Source: Sinomonas notoginsengisoli (GTDB taxonomy: Bacteria > Actinomycetota > Actinomycetes > Actinomycetales > Micrococcaceae). Taken from it: DNA of 64,000 nucleotides. Under the pieces are notes generated by a model, which ran no database searches, had not been told where the DNA came from, and worked only from the letters and a program-made list of their open reading frames with translations. The stretch spans positions 186,001-250,000 of the forward strand of contig NZ_JAIZDP010000001.1 of the NCBI RefSeq assembly GCF_021554725.1, read 5' to 3'. The position numbers and the translations under genes were made by a program. Positions within the stretch are counted from its first letter, which is position 1; every line of letters starts with the position of its first letter. Positions 36,587 through 52,578 of this stretch are shown here, in pieces.

Positions 36587-38002
36587 ATGCCTTTTCTGGA
36601 CCGGCTGTCGCGCTGGGCGGCGGAGAAGCAGCACGAGCCCGCGGTCGTCTGCGGGCGTGAACGGCTTTCATGGTCCGAGCTGCACGGCGCCGCCGCCGCC
36701 CTCGCCCGATCGGGAGAGCCCACCGGTGTGCTCCGGGAGCCCAACAGCGTGGGCTTCGCCGTGCGCTGGGCGGCGGGAGTGGCCGGCGAGCGCGAGTGCG
36801 CGGTCCTGGACCCCGCGTGGCCGGATGACCTCGCGGACACCGTGGAGCGTCGCCTCGCCGAGCGCTGGGGCGCCCCCGCACACCGGCGTCCGGCGCCTGA
36901 GGCCCTCCGCGACGGGGAACCGGCCTCCAGCTTCCTCGTGGGCCTGACCTCGGGGACGACGAGCGTCCCCAAGGCCTTCAGCCGCTCCCGTGCCTCCTGG
37001 GTGCGCTCCTTCGAGGCCTCCGCCGCCGCATTCCGCCTCGACCCCGCCGATCGGGTCCTAGCCCCTGGCCCGCTCTCGGCGAGCCTGAACCTCTACACGC
37101 TCTCGGAATGCCTCTGGGCGGGAGCCACCTTCCACACCCTTGCGCGGTTCGACGTCGGCGATGCGCATGCCGAGGTCTCGCTTCGCGGCATCACGCGCCT
37201 CGTCCTAGTCCCAACGATGCTCCGGGTCCTCGCCGAGCGGGGCATCACCGGAGACGTCGACGCGAGCGGGATTACCGCCGTCGTCTGCTCGGGCCAAAAG
37301 CTCGACCGGCGTACCCTCGAGGCAGTGCGGCGCTGGGCGCCACGGGCCGTGGTGTGGGAGTACTACGGCGCCTCCGAGCTGAGCTTCGTCGCCGCGAGCC
37401 GCCACGACCCCGGTCCTGCAGCCGCAGCCGCAGAGGTGGGCACCGGTGTCGGCCGTGCCTTCGAGGGCGTCGAGGCGGCCATCCTGGACGATCGGGGCGC
37501 TCCCGTGTCCGATGGGCAGACCGGCAACATCTGCGTGCGGAGCCCCCTAGTGTGCGACGGCTACGTGTGGGGAGATGACGGGCAGGCGTTCACGCGCCTG
37601 GGAGACTGGTTCACCGTCCGCGACCAGGGCTTCCTCGACGCCGGTGAACTGCATGTGCTCGGCCGGTCGCAGGACATGATCAACACCGGCGGCCACAACG
37701 TGTACCCGCACGAGGTCGAGGCAGCCCTCGCGATGCTGCCCGGCGTGGCTGAGGTGGTCGTGGCGGGCGTCCCCGATGACGTGCGGGGCCAGCGCGTCGT
37801 GGCCGGGATTGTCCCGGCGCACGCGGGGCTGTGCCAGCTCCAGCTCCGCGCGGGGCTCGAGGGGCGGCTCGCGCCGGCGAAGCGGCCGCTCGAGTACCTG
37901 CAGCTCGACGCCCTGCCCGTCACCGAACGCGGCAAGCTCTCCCGCACCGAATTCTCCCGCTGGGCGCTCGAAGGGGACTCGCGTGCGCGGCGGCTCGCCT
38001 GA
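36587..38002 (+). CDS. AMP-forming acyl-CoA synthetase (YhfT-like)
   Basis: The 471-residue ANL-superfamily enzyme shows the ATP-binding loop TSGTTSVPK near residue 120, the YYGASELSF motif near 265, GDWFTVRDQGFLD near 343 and the catalytic lysine in TERGKLSR near 450. The family activates a carboxylate to acyl-AMP and then acyl-CoA. It is shorter than most fatty acyl-CoA ligases (500-560) because its N-terminal domain is compact. It overlaps the thiolase gene, and the pair recalls Bacillus yhfT-yhfS. The chain-length preference is unknown. Confidence 0.87.
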   Translation: MPFLDRLSRWAAEKQHEPAVVCGRERLSWSELHGAAAALARSGEPTGVLREPNSVGFAVRWAAGVAGERECAVLDPAWPDDLADTVERRLAERWGAPAHRRPAPEALRDGEPASSFLVGLTSGTTSVPKAFSRSRASWVRSFEASAAAFRLDPADRVLAPGPLSASLNLYTLSECLWAGATFHTLARFDVGDAHAEVSLRGITRLVLVPTMLRVLAERGITGDVDASGITAVVCSGQKLDRRTLEAVRRWAPRAVVWEYYGASELSFVAASRHDPGPAAAAAEVGTGVGRAFEGVEAAILDDRGAPVSDGQTGNICVRSPLVCDGYVWGDDGQAFTRLGDWFTVRDQGFLDAGELHVLGRSQDMINTGGHNVYPHEVEAALAMLPGVAEVVVAGVPDDVRGQRVVAGIVPAHAGLCQLQLRAGLEGRLAPAKRPLEYLQLDALPVTERGKLSRTEFSRWALEGDSRARRLA

Positions 38003-39224
38003 GCCCGGCTACCGCAGGCGGCTCGCGCCCCCGGGAGCGCCCCTCGTGATGGCCGGCCGACGGACCCCTCTTGCGCGTGCTGGCACTCTGCTCGCCGAGG
38101 TTCCCGTCCACCGGCTGCTAACTCCTGTGCTGGAAGCGCTGACCGGGACGCCGGGCCTCGACCCCGCGCGGCTTGCCGACGTCGTCGTGGGCAATGCAGC
38201 GGGCGGCGGAGGGAACCTCGCGCGGCTCGCGGTCCTGGAGGCGGGCCTGCCGGAGCGCCTTCCCGGCATCACCGTGGACCGACAGTGCGGGTCCGGGCTC
38301 GACGCTGTCGTCCTCGCGTGCCGCCTCGCCCAGGCGGGTGCCGGGGACCTGTTCGTCGCCGGCGGCGCCGAGTCGATCAGCACCGCGCCGGTGCGCGGGA
38401 GGCGGCGGCCAGGGGGCGGCGTCGACTTCTACCACCGTGCCCAGCACGCCCCGACGGAGGAGGGCGAGGCGGAGCCCGGCGATCCGGAGATGGGCGTCGC
38501 GGCCGAGACGGTGGCACGGGAGGCCGGGGTGGTGCGGGAGCGCCAGGACGAGTTCGCGCTGCGGAGCCACCGCCTGGCGCTCACTGCACTCTCGCGAGGG
38601 GCGTTCGACGCCGAACTCGTGCCCGTGCGCGGACCACGGGGCTGGGTGCGGGCGGACAACGGTCCGCGGGCCCGCCTCGACGCGCGGCTCCTCGCCCGTT
38701 TCCCGCCGGCATTCGTCCCAGAAGGGACGGTCACGGCGGGTAATTCCTGCTTCGACGCCGACGGTGCGGCGGGGGTGCTTGTGGCAGCCCGCGACGCCGC
38801 AGCGGACCTCGAGGGGGCTGGGGCGCGGCCCTCACTGGCCTTCGTCGACGCGGTGACGGTGGGGGTCGACCCCCGGCGGCTCGGCCTCGGAGCGGCGATG
38901 GCCGCGCAGTCGCTCCTCGCGGACCTCGGACTGGGCATCTCAGACATCGCCGCCATCGAGTTCAACGAGGCCTTTGCCGGACAGGTTCTCGCGTGCACCG
39001 ACCGTCTTGGGGTCGGACCCGTGCAGCTGGACACTGTTCTCAACACCGGAGGTGGGGCGCTCGCCCTCGGCCATGCCTATGGCGCCTCCGGCGCGGTGTC
39101 AGTGGTACGGCTGCTCGCACGGGCGCAACTGCTCCCCGAGGGTGCGCTGTGCCTCGCGCTGATCAGCTCGGCAGGCGGAATCGGGACGGCGGCCCTCTTC
39201 GAGACGACGATGCCTCGCCCCTGA
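37983..39224 (+). CDS. Thiolase-family acetyl-CoA acyltransferase
   Basis: The 413-residue thiolase has the nucleophilic cysteine in DRQCGSGLDA, NEAFAGQVLA and the catalytic histidine in GHAYGASGA. The last active-site block reads ISSAGGIG where most thiolases have CxGGGxG, so the second catalytic cysteine appears to be serine. GTG at 37983 overlaps the synthetase by 20 nt and keeps the first beta strand (APLVMAGRRTP); ATG at 38049 would cut into it. It probably acts with the synthetase in acyl-CoA chain shortening or condensation, and the altered residue leaves the activity open. Confidence 0.8.
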   Translation: MRGGSPEPGYRRRLAPPGAPLVMAGRRTPLARAGTLLAEVPVHRLLTPVLEALTGTPGLDPARLADVVVGNAAGGGGNLARLAVLEAGLPERLPGITVDRQCGSGLDAVVLACRLAQAGAGDLFVAGGAESISTAPVRGRRRPGGGVDFYHRAQHAPTEEGEAEPGDPEMGVAAETVAREAGVVRERQDEFALRSHRLALTALSRGAFDAELVPVRGPRGWVRADNGPRARLDARLLARFPPAFVPEGTVTAGNSCFDADGAAGVLVAARDAAADLEGAGARPSLAFVDAVTVGVDPRRLGLGAAMAAQSLLADLGLGISDIAAIEFNEAFAGQVLACTDRLGVGPVQLDTVLNTGGGALALGHAYGASGAVSVVRLLARAQLLPEGALCLALISSAGGIGTAALFETTMPRP

Positions 39225-39282
39225 GAGCGGCGAAGCCTTCGACGCGCCAGCGTTGTCCTGTCGCTCGCACTGCGATGTGGGA

Positions 39283-39288
39283 TATGCT
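39283..39288 (+). promoter_or_regulatory. -10 candidate for the formate dehydrogenase operon
   Basis: TATGCT is followed by 7 nt and the ATG at 39296, the same leaderless spacing seen for other genes here. In-frame ATGs at 39275 and 39284 lie before or inside it, which favours 39296. No clear -35 was found. Confidence 0.4.
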
Positions 39289-39295
39289 CGCCGAC

Positions 39296-42200
39296 ATGGC
39301 ACGGCGAAGCTTCCTCGAGTGGCCGGTCGTTCGGCAGGTGAGCACGGGCGACCTGTTCGGCCGCGGACCGTCAGTCACGTCGCCCCGGACCAAGGCGATC
39401 GCCCCGCGGACGTCCACCGCTGACCGCGTGGTGCAGAGCGTCTGCCCTTACTGTGCTGTGGGATGTGGACAGCGCGTCTACGTCAAGGACGAGAAGGTCA
39501 TCCAGATCGAGGGCGATCCCGATTCGCCCATTTCGCGCGGCCGGCTCTGCCCCAAGGGCTCCGCCAGCGAGCAGCTCGTCAACTCGCCGGGCCGGCAGAC
39601 CCGAGTGCTCTACCGTGCCCCCCGCTCCACCGAATGGGAGCACCTGGATCTGGAGACGGCCATCGACATGGTGGCAAACCGGTTCATCGAGTCACGCCGC
39701 AGGACCTGGCAGCAGGAAGACGGAAAAGGCCGGATGCTGCGCCGCACGATGGGCATCGCCTCGCTGGGCGGCGCAACGCTGGACAACGAAGAGAACTACC
39801 TGATCAAGAAGCTCTTCACGGCTGCCGGAGCAGTGCAGATCGAGAACCAAGCCCGCATTTGACACTCCGCAACGGTTCCCAGTTTGGGAACCTCGTTTGG
39901 ACGCGGTGGTGCGACGCAATCACTGCAGGACATGGCCAACGCTGACTGCATCGTCATCCAGGGTTCCAACATGGCTGAGTGCCATCCCGTGGGATACCAG
40001 TGGGTAACGGAAGCGAAGGCCCGCGGAGCGAAGATCATCCACGTCGATCCCCGCTTCACGCGTACGTCCGCTGTCGCTGACAGGCACATCCCGATCCGGG
40101 CGGGCTCTGACGTTGTCCTGTTGGGCGCGCTCATCAACTATGTGATCGCCAACGACCTCTGGTTCAAGGAGTACGTCAGCGCCTACACCAACGCGGCAAC
40201 GCTGGTCCACGAGGACTATCGCGATGCCGAGGATCTCGGCGGACTGTTCTCCGGCTTCGATCCGGAGAAGCGGGCGTACGACACGGCGTCATGGTCGTAC
40301 GCGGAAGAGGCGGGTGGCGGCGTCAAGGAGCCCGGGGCCGGCTCGGAACACGGCGTCCATGCCTCGGCTCGGGCCGCTGGCGACGCTTTCGGCAGCGGGG
40401 GACCAGCCTTAGAGCATGCCCAGGTGCAGCGTGATGACACGCTGCAGGACCCGCGGACCGTCTTCCAGATCGTCAAGCGGCATTACGCGCGGTACACCCC
40501 CGAGATGGTTCGGGACATGTGCGGCATCGGCATCGCGGACTTCGAGTACCTGGCCCGCACCATCACGGAGAACTCAGGGCGCGACCGGACGACTTGCTTC
40601 GCCTACGCCGTCGGCTGGACCCAGCATTCGCTGGGGGCGCAGTTCATCCGGGCTGCTGCGGTCCTGCAGCTTCTGCTCGGAAACGTGGGCCGTCCCGGCG
40701 GCGGAATCATGGCCCTGCGCGGCCATGCCAGCATTCAGGGCTCCACGGACATCCCGACGCTCTTCAACCTCCTGCCCGGGTACCTTCCCATGCCCAGCGC
40801 AGGCCGCCACGACACCTTTAGCGCCTATCTGGACGCCATCGCCTCGAAGAAGCAGAAGGGTTTCTGGGCCGAGGCCGATGCCTACACCGTCAGCCTGCTG
40901 AAGGCCTGGTGGGGCGAAGCAGCGAGCGCGGAGAACGACTGGGCCTACGACTACCTTCCGAGGCTGACCGGAGCGCACGGGACCTACGAGACGGTGATGT
41001 CCATGCTCGGGGACGAGGTCGAAGGCTACTTCCTCCTTGGGCAGAATCCTGCCGTGGGCTCTGCCAACGGCCGGATGCAGCGTCTGGGCATGTCCCACTT
41101 GAAGTGGCTTGTGGTGCGGGACTTGAACCTCATCGAGTCGGCCACGTGGTGGAAGGACGGCCCGGAGATCGCTTCGGGGGAGCTGCGCACCGAGGACATT
41201 GAGACCGAGGTGTTCTTCCTCCCCGCAGCCACACACGTGGAGAAGGCCGGCTCATTCACGCAGACCCAGCGGCTGCTGCAGTGGCGGCATCAGGCGGTCG
41301 CACCGCCCGGGGAATGCCAGAGCGAACTTCAGTTCTTCTATGAACTGGGCCAGCGCATCCGGAAGAAACTGGCCGGGTCCGACGACGCGCGCGACCGCCC
41401 GCTGCTCGACCTCACCTGGGACTATCCCACGGACGAGCACGGCGATCCCGATCCCGAAGCCGTGCTTGCCGAGATCAACGGCCGTCACCTCGAGGGGCCG
41501 GACGCAGGCAGGCCCCTCTCGGCGTATACCGAGCTGCGTGCCGACGGATCGACGGCGGCGGGCTGTTGGATCTACACCGGCGTGTACGCGGGAGGCACCA
41601 ACCACGCCGCCAACCGCAAGCCGGGCCACGAGCAGGGACCCGCGGCGCCGGAATGGGGATGGGCCTGGCCTGCCAACCGTCGGATCCTGTACAACCGGGC
41701 ATCCGCCGACCCAGCCGGCAAACCGTGGAGCGAGCGGAAGAAGTACATCTGGTGGGACGAGGAACAGGGGCGATGGGTCGGCGACGACGTCCCCGACTTC
41801 CCGCCTGACAGGGCCCCGGGCAGCACGCCCGACCCCGCGCTCGGCGGTCCCGCTGCGCTCAGCGGAGATGATCCCTTCATCATGCAGTCCGACGGCAAGG
41901 GCTGGCTGTTCGCGCCCAAGGGCCTCGTGGACGGGCCCCTTCCTACCCATTACGAGGCGCAGGAATCGCCGGTGGCCAACGCGCTGTACCCGCAGCAGCA
42001 GAGCCCAGCACGGCTTGTGTTCCCCCGAGCCGACAACCTCAGTGCCCCAAGCGCTGGCACCAGCGGCGCTGACGTCTATCCCTACGTCTTCACCACGTAT
42101 CGGCTCACAGAGCACCATACGGCTGGGGGGATGAGCCGCTGGCTGCCCTACCTCTCGGAACTGCAGCCCGAGATGTTCTGCGAGGTTTCGCCCGAGCTGG

Positions 42201-42640
42201 CCGCCGAACGGGGACTTGAGCCCTACGGGTGGGCCACGATCATCTCTCCGCGCTCGGCGATTGAAGCGAAGGTGATTGTCACTGAACGGATGGCACCTCT
42301 CGTCGTCGGCGGCCACACCGTGCACCAGATTGGTCTGCCCTACCACTGGGGTGTCGGTGAGAACGCGGTCGTCAGCGGTGATGCGGCCAACGACCTCCTG
42401 GGCGTGACGCTGGACCCGAATGTCCAGATCCAGGAATCGAAGGTCGCCTCCTGCGATATCCGGCCGGGCCGACGTCCCCGAGGGGCGGAACTGCTTGCCT
42501 TGGTGGCCGAGTATCAGACGCGGTCCGGTGCAACGCCCGACACCGGGAACAGCGCGGTCACCGATCCCGCTGCCGAAGGCATCGATCCTGGCCTCGGCGG
42601 GGACAGCCTCCCGGGTACCGATTCGAGGTTGGAGGATTAG
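39296..42640 (+). CDS. fdhA: Selenocysteine-containing formate dehydrogenase, catalytic subunit
   Basis: The frame is interrupted only by UGA at 39860-39862, read as selenocysteine 189, giving 1114 residues. The context ENQAR(I)-Sec-HSATVP matches the Sec site of FdnG-type enzymes. A [4Fe-4S] cluster is bound by C50, C53, C57 and C85. Later blocks (NVGRPGGGIMALRGHASIQGS in part, the ESATWWKDGPE region, the C-terminal molybdopterin domain) match molybdenum or tungsten bis-MGD formate dehydrogenases. The enzyme oxidises formate to CO2. Residues 2-7 read ARRSFL, a twin-arginine-like motif, but no hydrophobic region or cleavage site follows. fdhB and a membrane subunit follow directly; the Sec machinery lies just beyond. 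No fdhD is in view. Confidence 0.95.
39860..39892 (+). promoter_or_regulatory. Sec UGA codon and bacterial SECIS hairpin
   Basis: The UGA (39860-39862) is followed after 11 nt by GGTTCCC (39874-39880), a five-base loop AGTTT (39881-39885) and GGGAACC (39886-39892), a perfect 7-bp stem. The 11-nt spacing and the apical G-U match my recollection of the E. coli fdhF SECIS that SelB binds. Its codons remain coding (HSATVPSLG). Confidence 0.88.
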
Positions 42641-43651
42641 ATGGGCCAGCTGTCCGGACCGACCGATCCCGCTGCCGATGCGCACTGGGAGGACCACCAG
42701 TCGCGCAAGGGGTTCTTCACGGACACCTCTATCTGCATCGGCTGCAAGGCGTGCGAAGTTGCCTGCAAGGAGTGGAACCACAACCCCCAGGACGGGAATC
42801 TCGAACTGCTCGAATCCTCGTACGACAACACTGGGGGACTGGGCGCGAGCACATGGCGCCATGTCGCCTTCGTCGAACAGGGCAAGGAACGCATCGTCGA
42901 AGCCCGCGAGTCCGGGCGTGAACTCGTCAATCTGGGCATGCCCCGCATCGGTCCTCCCGCCGCTGCCACGGCTACCACGCCGGACTTGGGGGAGGCCGAC
43001 AGGACGCCGCCGGACACGGCGGACTTCCGGTGGCTGATGTCCTCTGACGTCTGCAAGCACTGCACCCACGCGGGATGCCTCGATGTTTGTCCTACCGGAG
43101 CGCTCTTCCGTACCGAGTTCGGCACCGTGGTGGTCCAGGACGACGTATGCAATGGCTGCGGGACCTGTGTGGCTGGGTGCCCCTTCGGCGTGATCGAACG
43201 CAGACGTGACGGGACCGTTGCGGTCGCCGCCCAACGGGAGGACCGGCACGCCGAACACCCGGCCGTCCCGAACGTCGGCATAGCCCAGAAGTGCACCCTG
43301 TGCTACGACCGACTGTTGGCCGACGAGACGCCGGCCTGCGCCAAAGCCTGCCCGACGACGTCCATCAAGTTCGGCGACCACGACGACATGGTGGAGACCG
43401 CGAAGGAGCGAGTCGCCCAGTTGCATGCGCAAGGCCTGACGGAGGCGAGGCTGTATGGCGCCAATGAACTCGACGGCGTCGGCGGAACCGGATCGGTCTT
43501 TCTGCTGCTCGACGAGCCGGAGGTCTACGGGCTCCCGCCGGACCCGAAGGTCCCCACGGCGGACCTACCGCAGATGTACAGACGCGCTGGCATTGCTGTG
43601 GCCGGAATGGTGGCCGCAGCCGCGTTGGCTTTTGTGAGAGGACGGGCGTGA
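42641..43651 (+). CDS. fdhB: Formate dehydrogenase Fe-S (beta) subunit
   Basis: The 336-residue electron-transfer subunit has four [4Fe-4S] motifs. The first is C32, C35, C38, C42 (CIGCKACEVAC). The second is CKHCTHAGCLDVCP, the third CNGCGTCVAGCP and the fourth starts CTLCYD and ends CAKACP. A single membrane segment near the C-terminus (residues about 313-331, AGIAVAGMVAAAALAFV) anchors it, as in FdnH. It starts right after the fdhA stop and passes electrons from the Mo/W site to the membrane subunit. Confidence 0.95.
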   Translation: MGQLSGPTDPAADAHWEDHQSRKGFFTDTSICIGCKACEVACKEWNHNPQDGNLELLESSYDNTGGLGASTWRHVAFVEQGKERIVEARESGRELVNLGMPRIGPPAAATATTPDLGEADRTPPDTADFRWLMSSDVCKHCTHAGCLDVCPTGALFRTEFGTVVVQDDVCNGCGTCVAGCPFGVIERRRDGTVAVAAQREDRHAEHPAVPNVGIAQKCTLCYDRLLADETPACAKACPTTSIKFGDHDDMVETAKERVAQLHAQGLTEARLYGANELDGVGGTGSVFLLLDEPEVYGLPPDPKVPTADLPQMYRRAGIAVAGMVAAAALAFVRGRA

Positions 43652-44736
43652 CCCACTCGGACTTCGACACCTTCCGACCGCCCCAGCCCACCCGCCGCCC
43701 CCGGAGTGGAGGCAAGCGTGGCATCGGCCGCCGGGACGGCGGTGATGGGTCGCGGGAAATGCCGATGGTCCCCGAGCCGGAATTCACCTCGTATTACGGC
43801 CGTCCCGTCGTCAAGCCAGCGCCTTGGGGCGACGACGTCGCCGCCTACCTGTTCCTCGGCGGCGTCGCGGGCGGCTCTGCCCTGCTCGGCCTCGGCGGAC
43901 AGCTGACACGCCGCCCTACCCTGCGCCGGAACGCGCGGTTGAGCGCCCTGGCGGCCGTAAGTCTCGGTGCCGCCGCTTTGATGAGGGACCTCGGCAGGCC
44001 GGAGCGTTTCCTGCACATGCTCCGGACCTTCAAGCTGACCTCGCCGATGAGCGTCGGATCGTGGATCCTCAGCGCCTTTAGCGCCGGCACGGCGGTCTCG
44101 GCCGCTGCGGAGATCGATCGCCTAAGCGGCAGCCGGCTGCCCTTGGGCCCCCTGCGTCCGGTGCTGCACGCGGTCGAGGGGGCCGCCGGCCTTGAGGCCG
44201 CCCTGTTCGCGGGTCCTTTGGCGGCATACACGGCGGTCCTGCTCGGCGACACCGCAACACCGACGTGGAATGCGGCGCACGAGGACCTGCCCTTCGTCTT
44301 CGTCAGCTCAGCGTCCCTCGCGTCCGCCGGGCTCGCCATGATCACCACTCCGGTGCACGAGGCGGGCCCCGCCCGGACGCTGGCCGCGCTCGGCGTGGCA
44401 GGCGACCTCGTGGCGACGCGGGTCATGGAGCATCGGATGGACCCGGTGGCAGCTGAGCCCCTGCATCAGGGCAAAGCGGGCGCCATGCTGAAGTGGAGCG
44501 AGCGGCTGGCGGTGGCCGGTGGGCTGGGGACACTGCTGGCCGGACGGAGCCGTGCGGTGGCCGCGGCATCGGGCGTGGCGTTGCTGGCAGCCTCCGCCCT
44601 CACCCGGTTCGGCGTCTTGGAGGCTGGCCTATCCTCGGCCGGGGATCCGCGCTACACCATCGAACCGCAGAAGCGTCGACTGGCAGCACGCCGCTCCGCC
44701 GGCATCACCAACGATTCGATCACTACGGCGCGCTAG
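43648..44736 (+). CDS. NrfD-like quinone-reactive membrane subunit of formate dehydrogenase
   Basis: The 362-residue protein has a charged cytosolic N-terminus of about 65 residues followed by about eight membrane segments. DVAAYLFLGGVAGGSALLGL, MRDLGRPERFLHMLRTFK and the TSPMSVGSWIL block are NrfD/PsrC hallmarks. It has no cytochrome b histidine pattern, so quinone reduction would be haem-free, unlike E. coli FdnI. GTG at 43648 overlaps fdhB by 4 nt. It ends tail-to-tail with selD, 11 bp away. Confidence 0.9.
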   Translation: MTHSDFDTFRPPQPTRRPRSGGKRGIGRRDGGDGSREMPMVPEPEFTSYYGRPVVKPAPWGDDVAAYLFLGGVAGGSALLGLGGQLTRRPTLRRNARLSALAAVSLGAAALMRDLGRPERFLHMLRTFKLTSPMSVGSWILSAFSAGTAVSAAAEIDRLSGSRLPLGPLRPVLHAVEGAAGLEAALFAGPLAAYTAVLLGDTATPTWNAAHEDLPFVFVSSASLASAGLAMITTPVHEAGPARTLAALGVAGDLVATRVMEHRMDPVAAEPLHQGKAGAMLKWSERLAVAGGLGTLLAGRSRAVAAASGVALLAASALTRFGVLEAGLSSAGDPRYTIEPQKRRLAARRSAGITNDSITTAR

Positions 44737-44753
44737 GCAACCCGGGTCTAGCG
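44731..44753. terminator. Small inverted repeat holding both stop codons
   Basis: CGCTAG (44731-44736) and CTAGCG (44748-44753) are inverted copies around an 11-nt GC-rich spacer. The arms contain the TAG stops of the membrane subunit gene and of selD. It is the only candidate terminator in the gap. Confidence 0.35.
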
Positions 44754-45773
44754 GATCTCGATGCCCTGGTTGGCGACGGTGTGGCCGATCACGGGATGCC
44801 CGGGCAGTTCGCCGACGACGAGCAGCCCTCCCGAGGTCTGCGCGTCGGCAAGAAGGAGCAGGTCCTCTTCAGTGACCCCCGGAGCGGCACGCAGGTGCGG
44901 TCGCACCCACTCGAGGTTGCGCCGGGTCCCACCCGAGACAAAGCCGGCCTGCAGCGCCTCCCGGGCCCCCTGAATGAGCGGCACAGACGACAGGTCGATC
45001 ACCGCGCCCACCCCGGACGCACGGCACATCTTGTAGAGGTGCCCGAGGAGGCCGAAACCCGTCACGTCCGTCGCCGCACGTGCACCCGCCGCCACCGCGG
45101 CCTCAGCCGCGTCGCGGTTGAGATGCGCCATCGTCGCCACCGCTTCGGGGAACACGTCACCGGTCCGCTTGTGCCGGTTGTTGAGGAGTCCGACGCCGAT
45201 CGGCTTGGTGAGCGTGATCGGCAACCCCGGCTCCGCGGCATCGTTGCGCAGCAGCCGGTCGGGATGGGCGACGCCGGTCACCGCCATGCCGTACTTCGGC
45301 TCGGGATCGTCAATGGAATGCCCCCCGATCACCGGACAGCCGGCCTGCGAGGCGATGCTCAGACCGCCGCGGAGGACCTCGGTCATCAGCTCCGGAGGGA
45401 GGACCTCACGGGGCCAGCCCACGAGGTTGACCGCCATGATGGGGCGGCCTCCCATCGCATAGATGTCGGAGAGCGCGTTGGCCGCGGCGATCCGGCCCCA
45501 GTCGTAGGCATCGTCGACGACGGGGGTGAAGAAGTCAGCGGTGGAGAGCACGGCTAGATCTTCGCGCACCATGACCGCAGCCGCATCGTCGCCGCTTTCG
45601 AGGCCCACCAGCACGTCAGCACCGGGCTGGCCTATGAGCCCCCGAACCGCGTCTTCCAGCTCTCCGGGAGGAATTTTGCAGGCGCAGCCGCCACCGTGGG
45701 CGTAACCGGTCAGCCTCGGCGCGCGGACCGCGCCGTCGTCGAGTTGTGGCAATGACGTCGGGGCTTCATTCAC
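44748..45773 (-). CDS. selD: Selenide, water dikinase (selenophosphate synthetase)
   Basis: SelD makes selenophosphate, the selenium donor for Sec-tRNA formation. The 341-residue PurM-type ATPase has the N-terminal glycine-rich region with C30, C32 and K33 (HGGGCACKI), where K33 and a cysteine correspond to the catalytic Lys and Cys of E. coli SelD. STADFFTPVVDD, GGHSIDDPEPKYG and TDVTGFGLLGHL follow. It uses cysteine, not selenocysteine. GTG at 45773 is used. It is divergent from selC-selA-selB. Confidence 0.95.
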   Translation of the reverse strand: MNEAPTSLPQLDDGAVRAPRLTGYAHGGGCACKIPPGELEDAVRGLIGQPGADVLVGLESGDDAAAVMVREDLAVLSTADFFTPVVDDAYDWGRIAAANALSDIYAMGGRPIMAVNLVGWPREVLPPELMTEVLRGGLSIASQAGCPVIGGHSIDDPEPKYGMAVTGVAHPDRLLRNDAAEPGLPITLTKPIGVGLLNNRHKRTGDVFPEAVATMAHLNRDAAEAAVAAGARAATDVTGFGLLGHLYKMCRASGVGAVIDLSSVPLIQGAREALQAGFVSGGTRRNLEWVRPHLRAAPGVTEEDLLLLADAQTSGGLLVVGELPGHPVIGHTVANQGIEIR

Positions 45774-45814
45774 CCGGCCAGCCTACCCTCCAGCCGCCTG
45801 CTACATTGGGCTCC

Positions 45815-45909
45815 GGTGGCGTCCGGGTCCTGGTGGGCCCCCCGGTCTTCAAAACCGGTGAGACCGAGCATCTCGGTCTGGCGGGTTCGATTCCCGTCCG
45901 CCACCGCCA
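45815..45909 (+). tRNA. selC: tRNA-Sec (anticodon UCA)
   Basis: The 95-nt gene has the long acceptor arm of Sec tRNAs: GGTGGCGT at 45815-45822 against CCGCCACC at 45898-45905, seven Watson-Crick pairs plus a T-C mismatch at pair 8. A 6-bp D stem (GGGTCC/GGGCCC) is followed by an anticodon stem CCGGT/ACCGG with loop CTTCAAA, giving anticodon TCA. The 8-bp variable arm is AGACCGAG/CTCGGTCT. The T stem and TTCGATT loop are normal. G73 and an encoded CCA (45907-45909) finish it. It sits between selD and selA. Confidence 0.95.
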
Positions 45910-45946
45910 ACCACCGGCAGGCGCTGCCGGGCACTGAGGAGGGGAT

Positions 45947-47278
45947 GTGGACCACGTCGACCCTCGCCGCCTGATTCCTCGCACGAACGACCTGCTGGCC
46001 CTGCCAGCTGTGCACGAGGCTCGGAAGCGGCTGAACGAGCGCGTTATCCGCGACATCATCCAGCACGTCCAGGAGCGGGCTCGGCGCGGGGAGCTCGCCC
46101 CCGGCCACGTGGAACCGGCGTTGGTGGCCGCTCTGGCTGCACGCAGGGCGACAATTCTGAGGCCGGTGCTGAACGCTACTGGCGTGATCGTCCACACCAA
46201 CCTCGGCCGCGCACCCCTTTCCCCTCAGGCGCTTGACGCTCTTGTCGCGGCCAGCGGCTACGTCGACGTGGAGCTGGACCTGGCCGACGGCACCCGCTCA
46301 CGCCGCGGCGCCGGTGCCCGTGATGCCCTGCTTGCCGCCTGTTCCGCCGCTGAGGACGCCCTGGTGGTCAACAACGGCGCTGCGGCGCTGGTACTTGCCA
46401 CCACAGCGCTCGCGGCCCGCCGGGAAGTTGTGGTCAGCCGCGGGGAACTGGTCGAGATCGGGGCTGGCTTCCGGCTGCCCGACTTGATCGAGTCCACCGG
46501 GGCGGTGCTCCACGAGGTGGGGACAACCAACCGGACGCACCTGCGCGACTACGCCGGCGCTGTGGGCCCCGAGACGGGCTGCGTCCTGAAGGTCCATCCG
46601 AGCAACTTCCGGGTGGAGGGATTCACCTCAGCAGTCACCCTGCAGGACCTGAGCTCCTTGACGGCCGCGAACGGGGTACCGCTCATCGCGGACCTTGGCA
46701 GCGGGCTCCTCGCCCCCGATCCGTGTCTGCCGCACGAACCCGACGCTGCGACCGCTTTGGCTGACGGGGCCGACCTCGTCATTGCCAGTGGCGACAAGCT
46801 GCTGGGCGGCCCCCAAGCGGGTCTGCTGCTGGGCCGCAGGGAGATCATCAAGCGGCTGGGCCGCCACCCGCTCGCCCGTGCTGTCCGCGCCGACAAACTC
46901 GCCCTCGCCGCCTTGGAGGCGACTGTTGCGGGCGATGCGCCGCCGGTGGTCCGGTCGCTGCATGCCGACGTGGGGGAGCTGCGGCGCCGCACCGAGGCGC
47001 TTGCCAGTGCCCTCGGCGTACCTGTCGTGCCGCATGACGGCCGGGTGGGCGGCGGCGGTGCCCCTGGGGTTCCCCTGCCGGGGTGGGCGCTCCGACTCCC
47101 CGAGGGGCTCGCGGCTCTGCTGCGCGCCGGCGAGCCGGCCGTGCTGCCGCGCGTCCATGACGGCTCGTGCCTCGTCGATCTCCGCTGTGTGCCGGAGGAG
47201 GACGACCCCCGCGTCCTCGAGGCCGTACGCCGGGCGCTGGCAGCCCTCGAGGGCGCGGCGGCAGGCAGGCCGGGCTGA
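45947..47278 (+). CDS. selA: L-seryl-tRNA(Sec) selenium transferase
   Basis: SelA converts Ser-tRNA(Sec) to Sec-tRNA(Sec) using selenophosphate. The 443-residue PLP enzyme has the N-terminal tRNA-binding domain, NATGVIVHTNLGRAPLS near 75, NNGAAALVLATTALA near 142 and the PLP lysine K284 in SGDKLLGGPQAG. GTG at 45947 follows GAGGAGGGG. It starts 37 nt after the tRNA-Sec gene, so the tRNA may be processed from a selC-selA-selB transcript. Confidence 0.96.
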   Translation: MDHVDPRRLIPRTNDLLALPAVHEARKRLNERVIRDIIQHVQERARRGELAPGHVEPALVAALAARRATILRPVLNATGVIVHTNLGRAPLSPQALDALVAASGYVDVELDLADGTRSRRGAGARDALLAACSAAEDALVVNNGAAALVLATTALAARREVVVSRGELVEIGAGFRLPDLIESTGAVLHEVGTTNRTHLRDYAGAVGPETGCVLKVHPSNFRVEGFTSAVTLQDLSSLTAANGVPLIADLGSGLLAPDPCLPHEPDAATALADGADLVIASGDKLLGGPQAGLLLGRREIIKRLGRHPLARAVRADKLALAALEATVAGDAPPVVRSLHADVGELRRRTEALASALGVPVVPHDGRVGGGGAPGVPLPGWALRLPEGLAALLRAGEPAVLPRVHDGSCLVDLRCVPEEDDPRVLEAVRRALAALEGAAAGRPG

Positions 47279-47281
47279 GCG

Positions 47282-49078
47282 ATGCACGTCGTGGCCACCG
47301 CCGGGCATGTCGATTCCGGCAAGAGCACCCTGGTGCGCGCCCTCACGGGGATGGAGCCTGACCGTTGGGAGGAGGAACGCCGCCGCGGACTGACCATTGA
47401 CTTGGGCTACGCCTGGACTACATTGGCGTCCGGGCAGGAGGTTGCCTTCGTCGACGTGCCGGGCCATGAGCGCTTCCTCGGCAACATGCTCGCTGGAATC
47501 GGGCCCGCGCCCGTCGTCTGCTTCGTGGTCGCCGCCGACGAGGGATGGCAGGCGCAGTCGGGCGACCACCGCGACGCGGTCGCTGCCTTGGGTATCGAGC
47601 ACGGCGTCGTGGTCCTCAGCCGCGCGGACCGGGCGTCTGCCAAGCGGATGGGCGAGGTGCTTGCCCAGACCCGCAGGGAGCTGGCCTCGACGGGACTGCA
47701 CGACGCGCCCGCAGTTGCTGTGTCTGCCACCCAAGGCACAGGTCTGGCGGAATTCCGTGACGCGCTCGAGGGCGTCCTGGCCGGCGTCCCTGCTCCCACC
47801 ACCACCGGCCGGGTCAGGCTATGGGTAGACCGGTCGTTCACCATCACCGGCTCCGGAACGGTGGCGACCGGAACGCTGGGTGCCGGAACGCTCGTGCAGG
47901 GCGACGTCCTCCAGCTGATCGGGCACGGTGACGCCCGGCCCGTGGTGGTCCGCGGCCTGGAAAGCCGCGGGGCCTCGTACCCGTCGGTGAGTCCGGTCAG
48001 TCGAGTGGCGCTGAACCTGCGTGATGTTTCCGCCGACGATGTGCGCCGCGGAGACGCGCTCGTCACGCCCAATGCCTGGCCGTCGACGAGCCTGCTCGGC
48101 ATCCGCCGAACCACCGGCGCCCCATACACGGAGGTTCCGGAGCAGATCGTGGTGCATGTCGGCACCGCATCCGTGCCGGCCCGGCTGCGTCCCTTCGGTG
48201 CTGACCATGCCCGCCTCGTCCTAGACCGTCAGCTGCCGCTCGTTCTCGGAGACCGTCTGGTGCTGCGCCACCCGGGAAGCCGCTCGGTCCTCGGCGGGGC
48301 CCGCATCCTCGATGCCGACCCGCCGGCCCCGCGACGGCGCGGCGATAGCGCCCGCTGGGCGGAACGCCTTGTGTCCATGGATCCCGCGGGGGACGTGCTG
48401 GGTGAAGTGGCGGCCCGTGGGGCCGTCCAGGAGAAGCATCTGCGGCGCCTCGGGCTGTTCAATGACGACGATCCTGGCCCGCCGTCGGCCGTCCGGGTCT
48501 TGGGCGAGTGGTGGGTGCACGGTCCCGTCTTCGAGGCGTGGCAGCAGCGGCTGCGCGCCGCCCTCGAGGCCTTGAGGGCCCGGGACCCCTTGGCCCCGGG
48601 CCTGTCCATGGGAGCCGCCCGGGACCTTCTCGCGCTCCCGGACGAACGGCTCGTCCCGCACATCGTCCGCGATGCAGGCCTCGAACAGGCGGGCGGCCAC
48701 ATCCGGCTGCCCGGCGGCAACGGAGGCCTCGGCGCCGCCGAGTCCGCGGTCGCTGAGTTGGAGCGACGGCTCACCGCCCATCCATTCCACGCCCCGGAAG
48801 CCGACGAGCTGGGAGCCCTGAGCCTGGGGGCCCGGGAGCTGGCCGCCGCCGAACGGTTAGGACGCGTACTGCGGCTCCGTGACGGGGTGGTGCTCCTTCC
48901 GAGTGCGCCGGCTCTCGCGATGCGCGTCCTCGCCCGTCTGGACCAGCCGTTCACCACAAGCCAGGCACGTCAGGCGCTCGGCACGACACGGCGGATCGCC
49001 GTTCCGCTGCTGGAACACCTCGACTCGCGGGGGTGGACCCGGCGTTTGGACGCCGGCCACCGGACGGTGGTGCACTGA
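47282..49078 (+). CDS. selB: Selenocysteine-specific elongation factor SelB
   Basis: SelB delivers Sec-tRNA to the ribosome at UGA codons marked by SECIS. The 598-residue protein has G1 GHVDSGKST (8-16), G2 within RRRGLTIDLGYAW, G3 DVPGHE near 59 and G4 read as SRAD (usually N/TKxD). EF-Tu-like beta domains follow (SFTITGSGTVATGTL), and the C-terminal 200 residues form the winged-helix repeats that bind SECIS RNA. It begins 3 nt after selA. Confidence 0.95.
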   Translation: MHVVATAGHVDSGKSTLVRALTGMEPDRWEEERRRGLTIDLGYAWTTLASGQEVAFVDVPGHERFLGNMLAGIGPAPVVCFVVAADEGWQAQSGDHRDAVAALGIEHGVVVLSRADRASAKRMGEVLAQTRRELASTGLHDAPAVAVSATQGTGLAEFRDALEGVLAGVPAPTTTGRVRLWVDRSFTITGSGTVATGTLGAGTLVQGDVLQLIGHGDARPVVVRGLESRGASYPSVSPVSRVALNLRDVSADDVRRGDALVTPNAWPSTSLLGIRRTTGAPYTEVPEQIVVHVGTASVPARLRPFGADHARLVLDRQLPLVLGDRLVLRHPGSRSVLGGARILDADPPAPRRRGDSARWAERLVSMDPAGDVLGEVAARGAVQEKHLRRLGLFNDDDPGPPSAVRVLGEWWVHGPVFEAWQQRLRAALEALRARDPLAPGLSMGAARDLLALPDERLVPHIVRDAGLEQAGGHIRLPGGNGGLGAAESAVAELERRLTAHPFHAPEADELGALSLGARELAAAERLGRVLRLRDGVVLLPSAPALAMRVLARLDQPFTTSQARQALGTTRRIAVPLLEHLDSRGWTRRLDAGHRTVVH

Positions 49079-49108: not shown

Positions 49109-49732
49109 TCAGTCGTCGCCGAGGCCGCGGGCGGCGAGGGCGTCGCCGGTGCGGCGTGCGTAGGCGACCGCCGAGAGCACCACAGGCACCGTCCTGGCGC
49201 GCACGCTCCGCTCGAGCCCGCGGGCACGGGCCGCATCGCCCACGTCGGCGAAGGCACCGGCGAGCACGGGGATGCTCCGCAGCATGATCGCGATCGCGAG
49301 CGCGAAACGCTCCGGGTCCGCCCCGAAGCGCTGGAACGGACGCGCGAGGGACGCGACGGCGTCGAGCAGGCGTTCGAGCGGCACCGTCGCTGTGAGGAGC
49401 CCGGCCGCGACGAAGCACAGCAGGAGATTGGCGACGATACGCGTCGCCGTCTCGGGCCCCTGTTGCCACCACTGGAACGCGAAGAGGACTGCGGCGATGG
49501 GCAGCACGAGCTTCCAGGACGCGATCAGACGGCGCAGCCCGAGCCGCGCCGAGAGCCACGCCGTCACCGCGAGTGCCAGGACGCCCACGGAAACACGCCA
49601 GTCCAAAAGCACGAAGCTCGCCGCGCCAGCCGCGGCGACCCCGAGGAATTTCGCCACCAGGGGTGTGCGGTGCAGCCATGATTCGCCGGGCACGTACCCG
49701 GCGAGCAGGCCTCCAGCCGATCGGGCGCGCAT
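49109..49732 (-). CDS. bioN: ECF transporter transmembrane (T) component, BioN/CbiQ family
   Basis: The 207-residue protein has about five membrane segments in the first 130 residues. The coupling helices near the C-terminus carry DAARARGLE and TGDALAARGLG, the Ala-Arg-Gly motifs that contact the ATPase. Such T components join ATPases and a substrate-binding S component to import vitamins or metals. ATG at 49732 overlaps the ATPase stop. The short length fits BioN, but the substrate cannot be proved without the S subunit. Confidence 0.82.
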   Translation of the reverse strand: MRARSAGGLLAGYVPGESWLHRTPLVAKFLGVAAAGAASFVLLDWRVSVGVLALAVTAWLSARLGLRRLIASWKLVLPIAAVLFAFQWWQQGPETATRIVANLLLCFVAAGLLTATVPLERLLDAVASLARPFQRFGADPERFALAIAIMLRSIPVLAGAFADVGDAARARGLERSVRARTVPVVLSAVAYARRTGDALAARGLGDD

Positions 49733-50493
49733 CAGCTGCCAGCCGCCGTCGTGCGCGGATGGGCGGTTCCGACAGGCGCGGCGCACAGCGTCCGATAGAA
49801 CCCGACCGCGGCCGCGGGTTCGCCGTCGTACGCGATCCGCCCGCCCTCGACGACGAGAACTCGGTCGGCGTCCAGGGCGAGCTCGAGGTCGTGGGTGGAG
49901 AGGATGAGCTGCTGGTCGAGTCCGGCGAGCGTGTGGCGTAGGAGCTCGCGGTTGCGCAGGTCGAGGAGGGTGGACGGCTCGTCGAGGACAAGTACCTCGG
50001 GTCCGACCGCCAGCACGGCGGCGAGCGCCATGAGCTGCCGTTCCCCGCCGGAGAGCTCGTACACGCTCTGGTCGGCGAGCGCGTTGAGCCCGAACCTGTC
50101 GAGGACGGCCTGCGCTGCTGCGGCCCTCTCCGCCCGGTCGCGGTGCCTCCGGCGCAGGGAGAGCTCAACATCCTCGCGGCCGGTGGGCATGACCAGTTGG
50201 GAGAGCGGATCCGTGAAGACGAACCCGACGCGCTGGCGCACCGCGCGCCCCTCGCGGACCGTGTCACGTCCGTCGATCCGCACGGTGCCCGACGTCGGCT
50301 CCATGAGTCCGTTGAGCAGCCGCAGGAGAGTGGACTTGCCGGACCCGTTGGCGCCGACGACGGCGATTCGCGGCTCCGTGAGCGTTGCATCGATGTGCTC
50401 GAGCAGCACCTTGGAGGCCGGCGCCCCGGGGGCCCCCGAGGGTTCGTCGACGGGGACGGCGACGGACACGCCGTCGATCTCGATGCGCGCCAT
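49732..50493 (-). CDS. bioM: ECF transporter ATPase (A) component, BioM-like
   Basis: The 253-residue ATPase has Walker A GANGSGKST at 47-55, signature LSGGERQ near 147, Walker B VLVLDEPSTLLDL near 168 and H-loop STHDLELALDADR. A Pro/Gly-rich insert at residues 14-28 is unusual. The ATG at 50493 has no Shine-Dalgarno of its own and lies 2 nt after the stop of the 29-codon mini-ORF, so its translation is probably coupled to it. Confidence 0.84.
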   Translation of the reverse strand: MARIEIDGVSVAVPVDEPSGAPGAPASKVLLEHIDATLTEPRIAVVGANGSGKSTLLRLLNGLMEPTSGTVRIDGRDTVREGRAVRQRVGFVFTDPLSQLVMPTGREDVELSLRRRHRDRAERAAAAQAVLDRFGLNALADQSVYELSGGERQLMALAAVLAVGPEVLVLDEPSTLLDLRNRELLRHTLAGLDQQLILSTHDLELALDADRVLVVEGGRIAYDGEPAAAVGFYRTLCAAPVGTAHPRTTAAGS

Positions 50494-50495
50494 GG

Positions 50496-50585
50496 CTACT
50501 GCACGGGGCGGACGAGCACGTCCGGGAACGCCCGGTGCGCCGCTGTGGCCACGGTGGCTGGCGTGCTGGGTGCGGTCTTGCTCAC
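50496..50585 (-). CDS. 29-codon mini-ORF upstream of bioM, possible bioY remnant or leader peptide
   Basis: A GTG at 50585 with a strong Shine-Dalgarno (AGGAGGA, minus strand 50595-50589) opens a 29-residue frame ending in TAG at 50496-50498. The product has a Thr/Pro/Ala-rich first half (MSKTAPSTPATV) and a second half AAHRAFPDVLVRP. No membrane segment is present. The position is where the S component BioY is expected in bioYMN operons, so it may be an internally deleted bioY that keeps both ends, or a coupling leader. I do not recognise it as a family. Confidence 0.5.
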   Translation of the reverse strand: MSKTAPSTPATVATAAHRAFPDVLVRPVQ

Positions 50586-50761
50586 GATTCCTCCTGTACG
50601 GCCGCCCGAAGCGGTCTCCCTGACAGGTTACGCACGGCAGACGGGCTCCTTTTTGTTGGCGCCCCACGAGGCGGTCCGGCACCCTTTGGTGGCCGCCGAC
50701 AACACGACGCCACCCCGTCCGGGCGTTTCCCCCGTCAGGGCGACGGGTAGGCGAAGAGACG

Positions 50762-52450
50762 ATGAGTGAGATGCAGCCGCCGCCTGAGGATGAACTCCGC
50801 CGGATTGCCGTCGACCGCTTCGGATTCGACGAGTGGCGCGAGGGCCAGTTCGAGGCCGTCCAAGCCGCCACCGCTGGCCGCGACGTCCTCGCGGTGATGC
50901 CCGCCGGACATGGCAAGTCGGCGGTGTACCAGGTCCCGGGGGCAGCCCTCGGCGGCGTCACCGTGGTCGTCAGCCCGCTCATCGCGCTCCAGCGCGACCA
51001 GATGGAGGCGCTCAACGCGATCTTGGGCGCCGAGCAGGCCGTCGCGCTGAACTCGTCGCTCGGGGTGCGGGCCGAGCGCCGCGTCTGGCAGGCCCTCGAG
51101 GGCGGGGAGGCCACCTTTGTGTTCCTCGCACCCCAGCAGCTCGCCCGTGAGGACATCGTCTCCCGGCTGGCCGGACTGTGGCCCTCGCTGTTCGTTGTGG
51201 ACGAGGCCCACTGCATCTCTGCGTGGGGACACGACTTCCGCCCCGATTACCTCACCCTCGGGGAAGTGGTGGACCGCCTCGGTCATCCGACGACCGTGGC
51301 CCTCACCGCGACCGCATCACCGCACGCCCGGGCGGAGATCATCGAGCGGCTCGGCCTGGTGGACCCGCTCGTGCTGGTGCAGAGCTTCGACCGGCCCAGT
51401 CTCGCCCTCCGAGTCACCCGGCACTCGAGCGATGCAGAGAAGCGCGCCGCAGCGCTGGACGAGGTCGCCGAGCTCGGCGGCCCCGGGCTCGTGTACACCG
51501 CCACCCGCCGTGCGACCGAGGACTACGCGGCTGCCCTGACGGAGCGGGGGCTGCGTGCCGAGGCCTACCACGCGGGCCGCAGAGCGGCCGAGAGGACCTC
51601 CGTCCACGCGCGCTTCCTCGCCATCGAGATCGACGTCGTCGTGGCCACGACCGCCTTCGGCATGGGTATCGACAAGCCGGACGTGCGGTTCGTCGTCCAT
51701 GCCGACATCCCCGACTCCCTCGACAGCTACTACCAGGAGATCGGCCGGGCCGGGCGGGATGGGGACCCGGCGCTCGCCGTGCTCCACTACCGGTCCGAGG
51801 ACCTCGGCCTCCAGCGCTTCTTCGCGGGGGGATCGGTCCCAGAGAAGCAGCTGGCCGCGGTGTTCGCGGCCGTGAGCACAGCCGGCCCGGTGCGGCCCGC
51901 GGCCCTTCGTGGCCAGACGGGACTGAGCGCCCGTACCCAGTCCCGCGCGCTCGCCCTCCTCGAGGCGAGCGGTTCGATCCGGGGCGGCCGGCGGGGCTAT
52001 CGGTCAGCTGACGGCGTGGGGTGGGCCGACGCCGTCGAGCGCGCCGCGGCGGAGGAGGAGGCACGACGGCGCGTGGACACCTCGCGCGTGGAGATGGCAC
52101 GCGGGTACGCGGAGACGGGCCAGTGCCGCCGACAGTGGCTCCTGAACTACTTCGGCGAGGAGGCTCCCGCGTGGTGCGGCAACTGCGACCGCTGCGAGGA
52201 GGTGGGCAGCCGCGAGCAGGCCCGGGAGCACGAGGAGGCTACGCCGCACGCGTGGTCGATGCAGGACACGGTGCGCCATCGCGACTGGGGACCGGGCCTC
52301 ATCATGGGGGTGGATCCGGGTCGGATCACCGTGCTGTTCGAATCAGTGGGCTACCGGGAGCTCGCCCTGTCGGTCATCGAGGACAACGACGGTCTGCTGG
52401 TGCGGGAAGGCGCCGGTGGACCAGCGGGCGTCCGCCACATCCGATCGTGA
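50762..52450 (+). CDS. RecQ-like DNA helicase with PcrA/UvrD-type C-terminal tail
   Basis: The 562-residue helicase has Walker A PAGHGKS near 47-53, [15 protein letters not shown] near 147, TATAS near 182, GRAGRDG near 330 and the RecQ zinc site (the arginine-rich [13 protein letters not shown] and CGNCDRC near 458-480). It lacks an HRDC domain. Residues about 500-545 form a separate beta-rich unit with [12 protein letters not shown] and [13 protein letters not shown], like the Tudor-type tail of PcrA/UvrD that contacts RNA polymerase. The plan resembles mycobacterial RqlH. It acts in DNA repair or recombination. Confidence 0.9.
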
Positions 52451-52529
52451 CCTGGCGCGAGCGCCTCGGCCAGAAGCAGGGCGAGCAGCTTGGTGCGCGT
52501 CAGGAGGCGCCAGCCAAGCCCGATACCAT

Positions 52530-52559
52530 GGGATGAGGCCCACCATCGGGCCCCATCCC
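52530..52559 (+). promoter_or_regulatory. Leader hairpin before the ABC-F gene
   Basis: GGGATG-A-GGCCC pairs with GGGCC-C-CATCCC, an 11-bp stem with one A-C mismatch, at 52530-52559. It lies 20 nt before the GTG at 52579. It may shape translation or be an attenuator. Confidence 0.3.
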
Positions 52560-52578
52560 CCGAAAGGCCCTACCCGAA

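Follow-up and report, generated by a model that had tools for sequence, protein, structure and literature searches.

In this work we have asked how a formate dehydrogenase (FDH) that uses selenocysteine (Sec), together with the genes needed to make and insert this amino acid, came to its present place in the chromosome of Sinomonas notoginsengisoli, and what became of the cysteine-containing (Cys-type) FDH which most of its relatives carry close by. The window, by which we mean the whole stretch of 64,000 nucleotides that was analysed (contig NZ_JAIZDP010000001.1, positions 186,001 to 250,000), comes from a Sinomonas assembly of 3.59 Mb in 32 contigs with a completeness of 99.97. An earlier reading, made from the sequence alone, had described at 39296-49078 a compact island consisting of fdhA with an in-frame UGA, fdhB, an NrfD-like gene, selD, the gene of tRNA-Sec, selA and selB. 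The island is real: every part lies at its expected position and there is no unrelated gene inside it. The same sequence-only reading held that so compact a unit could be gained or lost by transfer in one step, and the evidence supports this idea in substance, for a transfer that is old in time and of a kind known in principle. We consider it likely that the Sec module entered this locus, was exchanged between lineages and displaced a Cys-type FDH. In this Sinomonas lineage it would have come in with a thiolase gene on one side and a biotin-ECF-like transporter gene on the other, it would have been exchanged between lineages along with the genes downstream of it, most likely by homologous recombination, and it would then have made the nearby Cys-type FDH dispensable, so that the latter was deleted.

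How clean is the insertion? On its left the island is flanked by a thiolase-like open reading frame (ORF; 37776..39224, plus strand, with a true start that may be further in) and on its right by cbiQ, a CbiQ/BioN-type transmembrane gene of an energy-coupling factor (ECF) transporter (49109..49786, minus strand; PF02361). In all 13 genomes of the genus which have no island here the thiolase gene adjoins cbiQ, with 28-241 bp between the two matches in 12 of them, and the comparison with island-less relatives that had been proposed as a check therefore gave a clean insertion. The island lies between these two genes (site A) in the window, in genome G121 and in S. cellulolyticus. Six other Sinomonas have it at four other sites, one of which is shared by G104, G061 and G150, while the islands of G151, G152 and G156 occupy three further sites that have no flank in common over 5 kb. 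Could the island then have moved within the genome, from another Sinomonas site? In favour of such a move, nine Sinomonas genomes have the island at no fewer than five different sites, as told from flanks no longer than 5 kb. Copies from outside site A, however, share 82-84% identity with that of the window and so are more distant from it than the other site-A copies, and no genome among the 15 of the genus has two UGA-fdhA copies among the matches listed; we regard a move of this kind as unlikely.

Exchange between lineages is suggested by trees which disagree with each other. The island tree joins G121 to a pair formed by the window and S. cellulolyticus (support 100/100), and the proteins of its FDH half and of its Sel half give the same Sinomonas island groups. 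The adjoining genes cbiQ and ecfA also unite the window, G121 and S. cellulolyticus (100/99.8) and reject a group of the window, G153 and G154 (approximately unbiased (AU) test, p 0.001). The species tree, built on two genes only (mfd and dnaE), conflicts with this: it joins the window to G153 and G154 (100/99.8) and rejects the window with G121 (AU p 3e-65), and the genes of the upstream flank reject the trio of the window, G121 and S. cellulolyticus (AU p 3e-69). The same kind of conflict appears at another site, where the island of G152 groups with those of G104, G061 and G150 (100/99 for the whole island, 83/68 and 99/98 for its halves), whereas mfd and dnaE put G152 with G156 (100/99) and reject its island grouping (AU p 5e-75). 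A scan by 300-bp pieces from about 49.1 to 52.4 kb shows S. cellulolyticus and G121 to be closer to the window than all others in most pieces, with an exception at 50.28 kb; on the upstream side the closeness to G121, though not that to S. cellulolyticus, begins at about 38 kb. Such a scan pattern, together with the conflict between the island and cbiQ-ecfA on one side and mfd and dnaE on the other, is the expected trace of a stretch exchanged by homologous recombination. Inside the co-inherited block lies a gene for a RecQ-type helicase (50762..52450, plus strand; Pfam DEAD, Helicase_C and RecQ_Zn_bind), whose DNA is 85-87% identical to that of G121 and S. cellulolyticus and 70-73% identical to that of the seven other genomes which have recQ.

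These trees also bear on the alternative that the island has descended vertically in its present place from the ancestor of Sinomonas, with clean loss in the congeners that have no island here. Among the three site-A genomes alone the island tree, rooted as drawn, does not conflict with the upstream tree, and the whole island does not reject a single clade of Sinomonas islands (p 0.063). Against it, cbiQ and ecfA, which occur in each of the 16 compared loci, group as the island does and not as mfd and dnaE do; in six other Sinomonas the island occupies four different sites; and no remnant of an island was seen in the 12 empty gaps, which were inspected by eye with no search made. We think descent of this kind improbable, somewhat more so than a move within the genome.

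What part of the transfer idea does not hold is its recency. The site-A copies of the island differ by 13-15% in DNA, and the move is therefore not recent; movement as a unit and insertion relative to the relatives stand. A check of composition, also proposed at the outset, came out divided. G+C content at third codon positions (GC3) is lower in all six protein-coding genes of the island (0.80-0.83; the median of 41 further ORFs of the window, chosen by base composition and by hand, is 0.87; Mann-Whitney p 2.6e-4), yet codon-usage distance exceeds the 90th percentile only for fdhB and selA and is ordinary for the other four, and we dropped recent foreign origin as a reading of the composition. 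A recent one-step wholesale transfer from a distant actinobacterium, with which the slightly lower GC3 and the compact, complete and cleanly joined island would agree, is very improbable, given those ordinary codon-usage distances, the fact that among ten island copies those of the two further site-A Sinomonas are the nearest (86-87% in DNA) and the placement of FdhA in a Sinomonas/Arthrobacter group in a tree of 100 of 131 rows, from which most Mycobacterium rows and duplicates were excluded.

The displacement of a Cys-type FDH is the other half of our explanation. In 11 of the 15 genus genomes a Cys-type fdhA-fdhB-nrfD cluster lies 2-5 kb downstream of the thiolase gene, before an ABC-F gene, and at this position it is absent in the window and in G121. 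Among the matches listed, eight of the 15 genomes have a UGA-fdhA and 11 a stop-free fdhA, the latter with Cys (TGC) at the Sec position in each case; six genomes thus have both enzymes, two have the Sec form only (the window and G121), five the Cys form only and two neither. The window retains, between recQ and the ABC-F gene, a probable remnant of the lost cluster (52477..52530, plus strand): 54 bp with 83% identity to the terminal part of nrfD from the Cys-FDH of G104 (E 3e-11). Read in frame, this tail is GARQEAPAKPDTMG followed by the stop in the window and AARQEEPAKADTMG followed by the stop in G150, the last residues being QEAPAKPDTMG in the window and QEEPAKADTMG in the relative; the tail of G121 is shorter. 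When compared with the nrfD genes of G084, G104, G061, G150 and G153, the match starts 60-61 nt before the end of the stop codon in the window and 41-44 nt before it in G121, whereas in G155 it starts 2 nt before that end and in G006 it starts beyond the stop or is absent; neither of these two genomes has an FDH. With nrfD of G151 as the reference the match starts 13 nt before the end of the stop in the window and 20 nt before it in G155, and against that of G149 it is again 20 nt in G155.

In S. cellulolyticus the situation differs. Directly behind recQ there is an ATG frame, beginning MASPLGWPVLRQ, in which 48 of 55 residues are identical to the start of the Cys-FdhA of G151 and 28 of 51 to the Sec-FdhA of the window; the fetched stretch ends inside the gene. 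The island and this Cys-FdhA start are about 3.4 kb apart. The state with both enzymes thus probably exists at this very locus, and the Cys enzyme was probably lost later in the window and in G121: the position of the frame suggests insertion, coexistence and then loss, an order which we infer from the comparison of present-day loci. A single event that swapped both enzymes, the recombined block itself having come without a Cys-FDH, had also been considered and was dropped on account of the Cys-FdhA start behind recQ of S. cellulolyticus. Do the genomes of Sinomonas then preserve successive stages of the displacement, from Cys only, through both enzymes (S. cellulolyticus), to Sec only with a deletion scar (the window and G121)? 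We would give this an even chance, the scar being short beyond a promoter-like stretch. The endpoints of the scar differ between the window and G121, so that the losses were perhaps independent.

Some further observations concern the two enzymes and this region. Sec-type and Cys-type FDH of the same family occur together in G104, G061, G150, G151, G152, G156 and G018; the Cys FdhA shares some 64% identity with the Sec FdhA of the window, and the two are possibly a selenium-dependent backup pair. The slot from ecfA to the ABC-F gene (50430-52579 in the window) varies in the genus, being empty or holding a Cys-FDH, recQ with a Cys-FDH, or recQ alone. Seven of the 15 genomes have recQ with a Cys-FDH, and these form one clade in the Cys-FdhA tree, against mfd and dnaE.

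Several points weigh against our explanation. The dnaE of the window is only 80% identical to those of G121 and G084 and 88-90% identical to those of G104 and G153, while mfd and dnaE reject the group of G121 and G006 obtained with the upstream flank (p 8e-6); recombination in the genus is therefore wide and the species tree uncertain. S. cellulolyticus is placed by this locus and its flanks only. A single origin of all Sinomonas islands has AU p values of 0.063 for the whole island, 0.44 for the FDH half and 0.040 for the Sel half. The remnant is short, it directly adjoins the beginning of the ABC-F gene, the match of the FDH-less G155 also begins up to 20 nt ahead of the nrfD stop of G149 and G151, and part of the nrfD tail may have been kept as a promoter. 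Lastly, no recombinase or transposase was recognised among the island genes or in nine proteins flanking four other island loci, three of which have no Pfam match and which are a minority of the flanking genes.

With entry, exchange and displacement of the Cys enzyme as the likely course, what is it that was exchanged? The client gene fdhA (39296..42640, plus strand) encodes a molybdopterin-containing FDH alpha subunit (NF041513, 1947 bits, profile positions 3-1066 of 1067) with the Pfam Molybdopterin, Fe4S4 and dinucleotide-binding domains, and the sequence around its ATG is conserved in three genomes. A -10-like TATGCT lies a few bases 5' of this ATG (window 39281-39298), likewise in G121 and S. 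cellulolyticus, and its position would suggest a leaderless transcript. The only internal stop of fdhA is the UGA at 39860-39862 (plus strand), which corresponds to residue 189 in the context QARI*HSATV. After 11 further bases comes a hairpin of the selenocysteine insertion sequence (SECIS) type (39874..39892, plus strand), GGUUCCC-AGUUU-GGGAACC, with a stem of 7 bp and the 5-nt loop AGUUU, for which fold, covariation and a genome-wide model match all speak. In 28 sequences (of 100 distinct ones, hand-picked for diversity, with Cys rows excluded) standard pairs occupy 95.9% of 196 stem cells, with two-sided changes at three of the seven pairs; when the partners are slid, standard pairs fall to 29-71%. 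A covariance model of this region had a single significant match in the genome (E 1.4e-16; next best 0.15), and four weaker matches have no TGA in their first 20 bases. The search for further UGA-SECIS genes therefore left fdhA as the only client recognised, with a model that is FdhA-like and that other kinds of SECIS could escape.

The genes for Sec itself follow the FDH genes. selD (selenophosphate synthetase, 44748..45773; TIGR00476, E 1.8e-116) is on the minus strand, opposite to the other island genes, a point the sequence-only reading had left unstated; it has HGGGCACK at the usual Cys/Sec place and no UGA. selC, the tRNA-Sec gene with anticodon UCA (45815..45909), was found by ARAGORN and by RF01852 (79.1 bits), and it is followed by selA, for selenocysteine synthase (45947..47278; TIGR00474, E 3e-124), and selB, for the Sec-specific elongation factor (47282..49078; TIGR00475, E 4.9e-78), all three on the plus strand. 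Searches of the own genome found one tRNA-Sec and one each of selA, selB and selD over the cut-offs and no extra sel gene elsewhere, so that the claimed self-containment holds for Sec. The four components of the Sec-decoding trait (SelA, SelB, SelC and SelD) are thus all present, with a client that has both an in-frame UGA and a SECIS hairpin. The roles of these four are established for their families. SelD would form selenophosphate, with which SelA would convert Ser-tRNA-Sec to Sec-tRNA-Sec; SelB, held by the hairpin right after the UGA of fdhA, would deliver the latter for insertion of Sec at residue 189, the place at which it is expected to bind molybdenum. No selenouridine synthase (ybbB) was found in a search of the own genome, which leaves Sec as the one use served by selD out of the two tested for selenophosphate. 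FdhD is a sulfurtransferase required by formate dehydrogenases, and its one copy lies outside the island, on C30; the island is therefore complete for Sec and incomplete for FDH maturation.

The enzyme is of the FqoABC kind, and from its sequence the island appears to be a complete actinobacterial Sec module around one client, a membrane-bound formate:menaquinone oxidoreductase. Besides the FdnG-like FdhA, which is over the cut-off of its model, it has an FdnH-like iron-sulfur subunit, fdhB (42641..43651, plus strand; Fer4 domains), whose TIGR01582 match (E 5.3e-49) is below the curated cut-off, and an NrfD-type, FqoC-like membrane subunit (43648..44736, plus strand; PF03916, E 8.7e-15). The latter has no invariant His among 24 sequences, in keeping with a lack of haem ligands, and its predicted model (mean predicted local distance difference test score, pLDDT, 81.5) has menaquinone-bound PsrC as its closest match (E 3.4e-5) and also resembles alternative complex III subunits. 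The claim that the electron path ends in a haem-free NrfD-type anchor and not in a cytochrome b is thus supported. FdhA would oxidise formate and pass the electrons via the clusters of FdhB to menaquinone at this subunit, roles that we infer from homology. The haem-free anchor and its PsrC-like fold agree with the assignment of FqoABC as a formate:quinone oxidoreductase with an NrfD-like subunit (PMC8076601), which the island FDH matches; that assignment was made from genome surveys, and the description given there does not mention Sec. The third subunit of the island is NrfD-type, with no four-helix cytochrome b, and in this it is unlike E. coli FDH-N. The gamma subunit of FDH-N (FdnGHI) is a four-helix cytochrome b, and its alpha subunit has a twin-arginine translocation (Tat) signal with a hydrophobic stretch. 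The four-helix gamma subunit is also described in PMC13332983. In the N-terminus of the island FdhA, MARRSFLEWPVVRQ, there is a twin Arg, but visual inspection shows no hydrophobic segment (with upstream residues included the hydropathy maximum is 0.46) and relatives do not conserve the Arg pair; FdhA therefore probably faces the cytoplasm. For a related FdhA of Rhodococcus the predictions conflict, with a signal peptide from one program and none from two (PMC13332983), which is a point against this orientation.

How common is such a module? It had been suggested that Sec usage is patchy in Actinobacteria; rarity of the island is not supported, the same unit and gene order being widespread there. 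Among 149 genomes of the family, sampled evenly out of a larger set, FdhA is over the cut-off in 42 (40 with UGA, among the matches listed) and selA in 39, and UGA-FdhA occurs together with selA in 38; the remaining three genomes with one or the other are G021, in which fdhA is at a contig start, G148, an assembly of 430 contigs, and G125, which has selA and a partial fdhA. In the named loci the UGA stands at the Sec position in 79 of 80, the motif not being found in L180, where fdhA is cut by the contig start. The order fdhA, fdhB, nrfD, selD (minus strand), selA, selB is kept in 77 of 116 loci (after recognised same-genome duplicates were removed by hand). In 15 others, all of Mycobacteriaceae, the sel genes are on the other side of the FDH genes, 15 have only FDH genes (12 Cys, three on short contigs), six are cut before or within selB and three are single cases. 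tRNA-Sec was detected in 46 of 46 Sec loci scanned and in none of 14 others. Natural variants of the module include G059 (L102/L103), with about 11 kb between nrfD and selD, and G001 (L104), in which the selB-selA part is inverted. Knoellia koreensis (L186) has fdhA-fdhB-nrfD, tRNA-Sec and selB, with no selA or selD match within the fetched stretch. In genus g21 (G048, G073, G093, G110 and G140) the Sec-FdhA lacks about 35 profile residues (about 339-374) and is over the cut-off by joined pieces in all five genomes. More distant molybdopterin oxidoreductase matches, each interrupted by an internal TAG and an internal TGA, lie at G135:C33:160498-161247 and G084:C1:1444861-1445610 and may be pseudogenes, errors or cases of recoding.

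The island is thus a further example of the known actinobacterial FDH-Sec clusters and ordinary in kind. In Corynebacterium aurimucosum the cluster shown in PMC2830990 comprises fdnG (0962), fdxH (0964), selD (0966), selA (0967), selB (0968) and selC: UGA-containing FDH genes adjoin selD, selA and selB, with selC in the same figure. It differs in genus and site, and the likeness covers gene content, not full order, strands or membrane subunit. A joint transfer of sel genes and fdhA was put forward in 2006 for Pseudomonadales (PMC1794560), where selA-selB-selC and a neighbouring fdhA were likewise inferred to have moved together as Sec genes and single FdhA client; selD was thought there to evolve apart, with ybbB, whereas the Sinomonas island includes selD and no ybbB was found. 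The FDH1 cluster of Actinomycetospora chiangmaiensis, linked to selenium-dependent formate removal, is listed with a Sec-FDH, SelA and SelB (PMC7176365), but SelD is not in that list and the organism has three Sec-FDH systems. Sec transfers into Arthrobacter are listed in PMC5029168. Our literature search, limited to one paper collection, returned nothing on Sinomonas with selenocysteine, and for Sinomonas formate dehydrogenase and Micrococcaceae selenocysteine only matches judged unrelated by title or start of abstract.

The module itself is therefore known; the new part is the proposed displacement of a Cys-type FDH by a Sec module, with a probable scar, as it emerges from comparison of sequences alone. 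If true, this would be a gain of selenocysteine at the level of the enzyme, the reverse of the Sec-to-Cys conversions that have been reported for FdhA. With genomes that have no FDH, a Cys-FDH, both enzymes or a Sec-FDH, with syntenic empty sites and with a probable deletion scar, the genus offers a tractable natural series. Why do cells keep so costly a system as that for Sec, and does the Sec enzyme pay beside the Cys enzyme? With this series one may ask these questions, and also whether it is the supply of selenium that decides which FDH persists.

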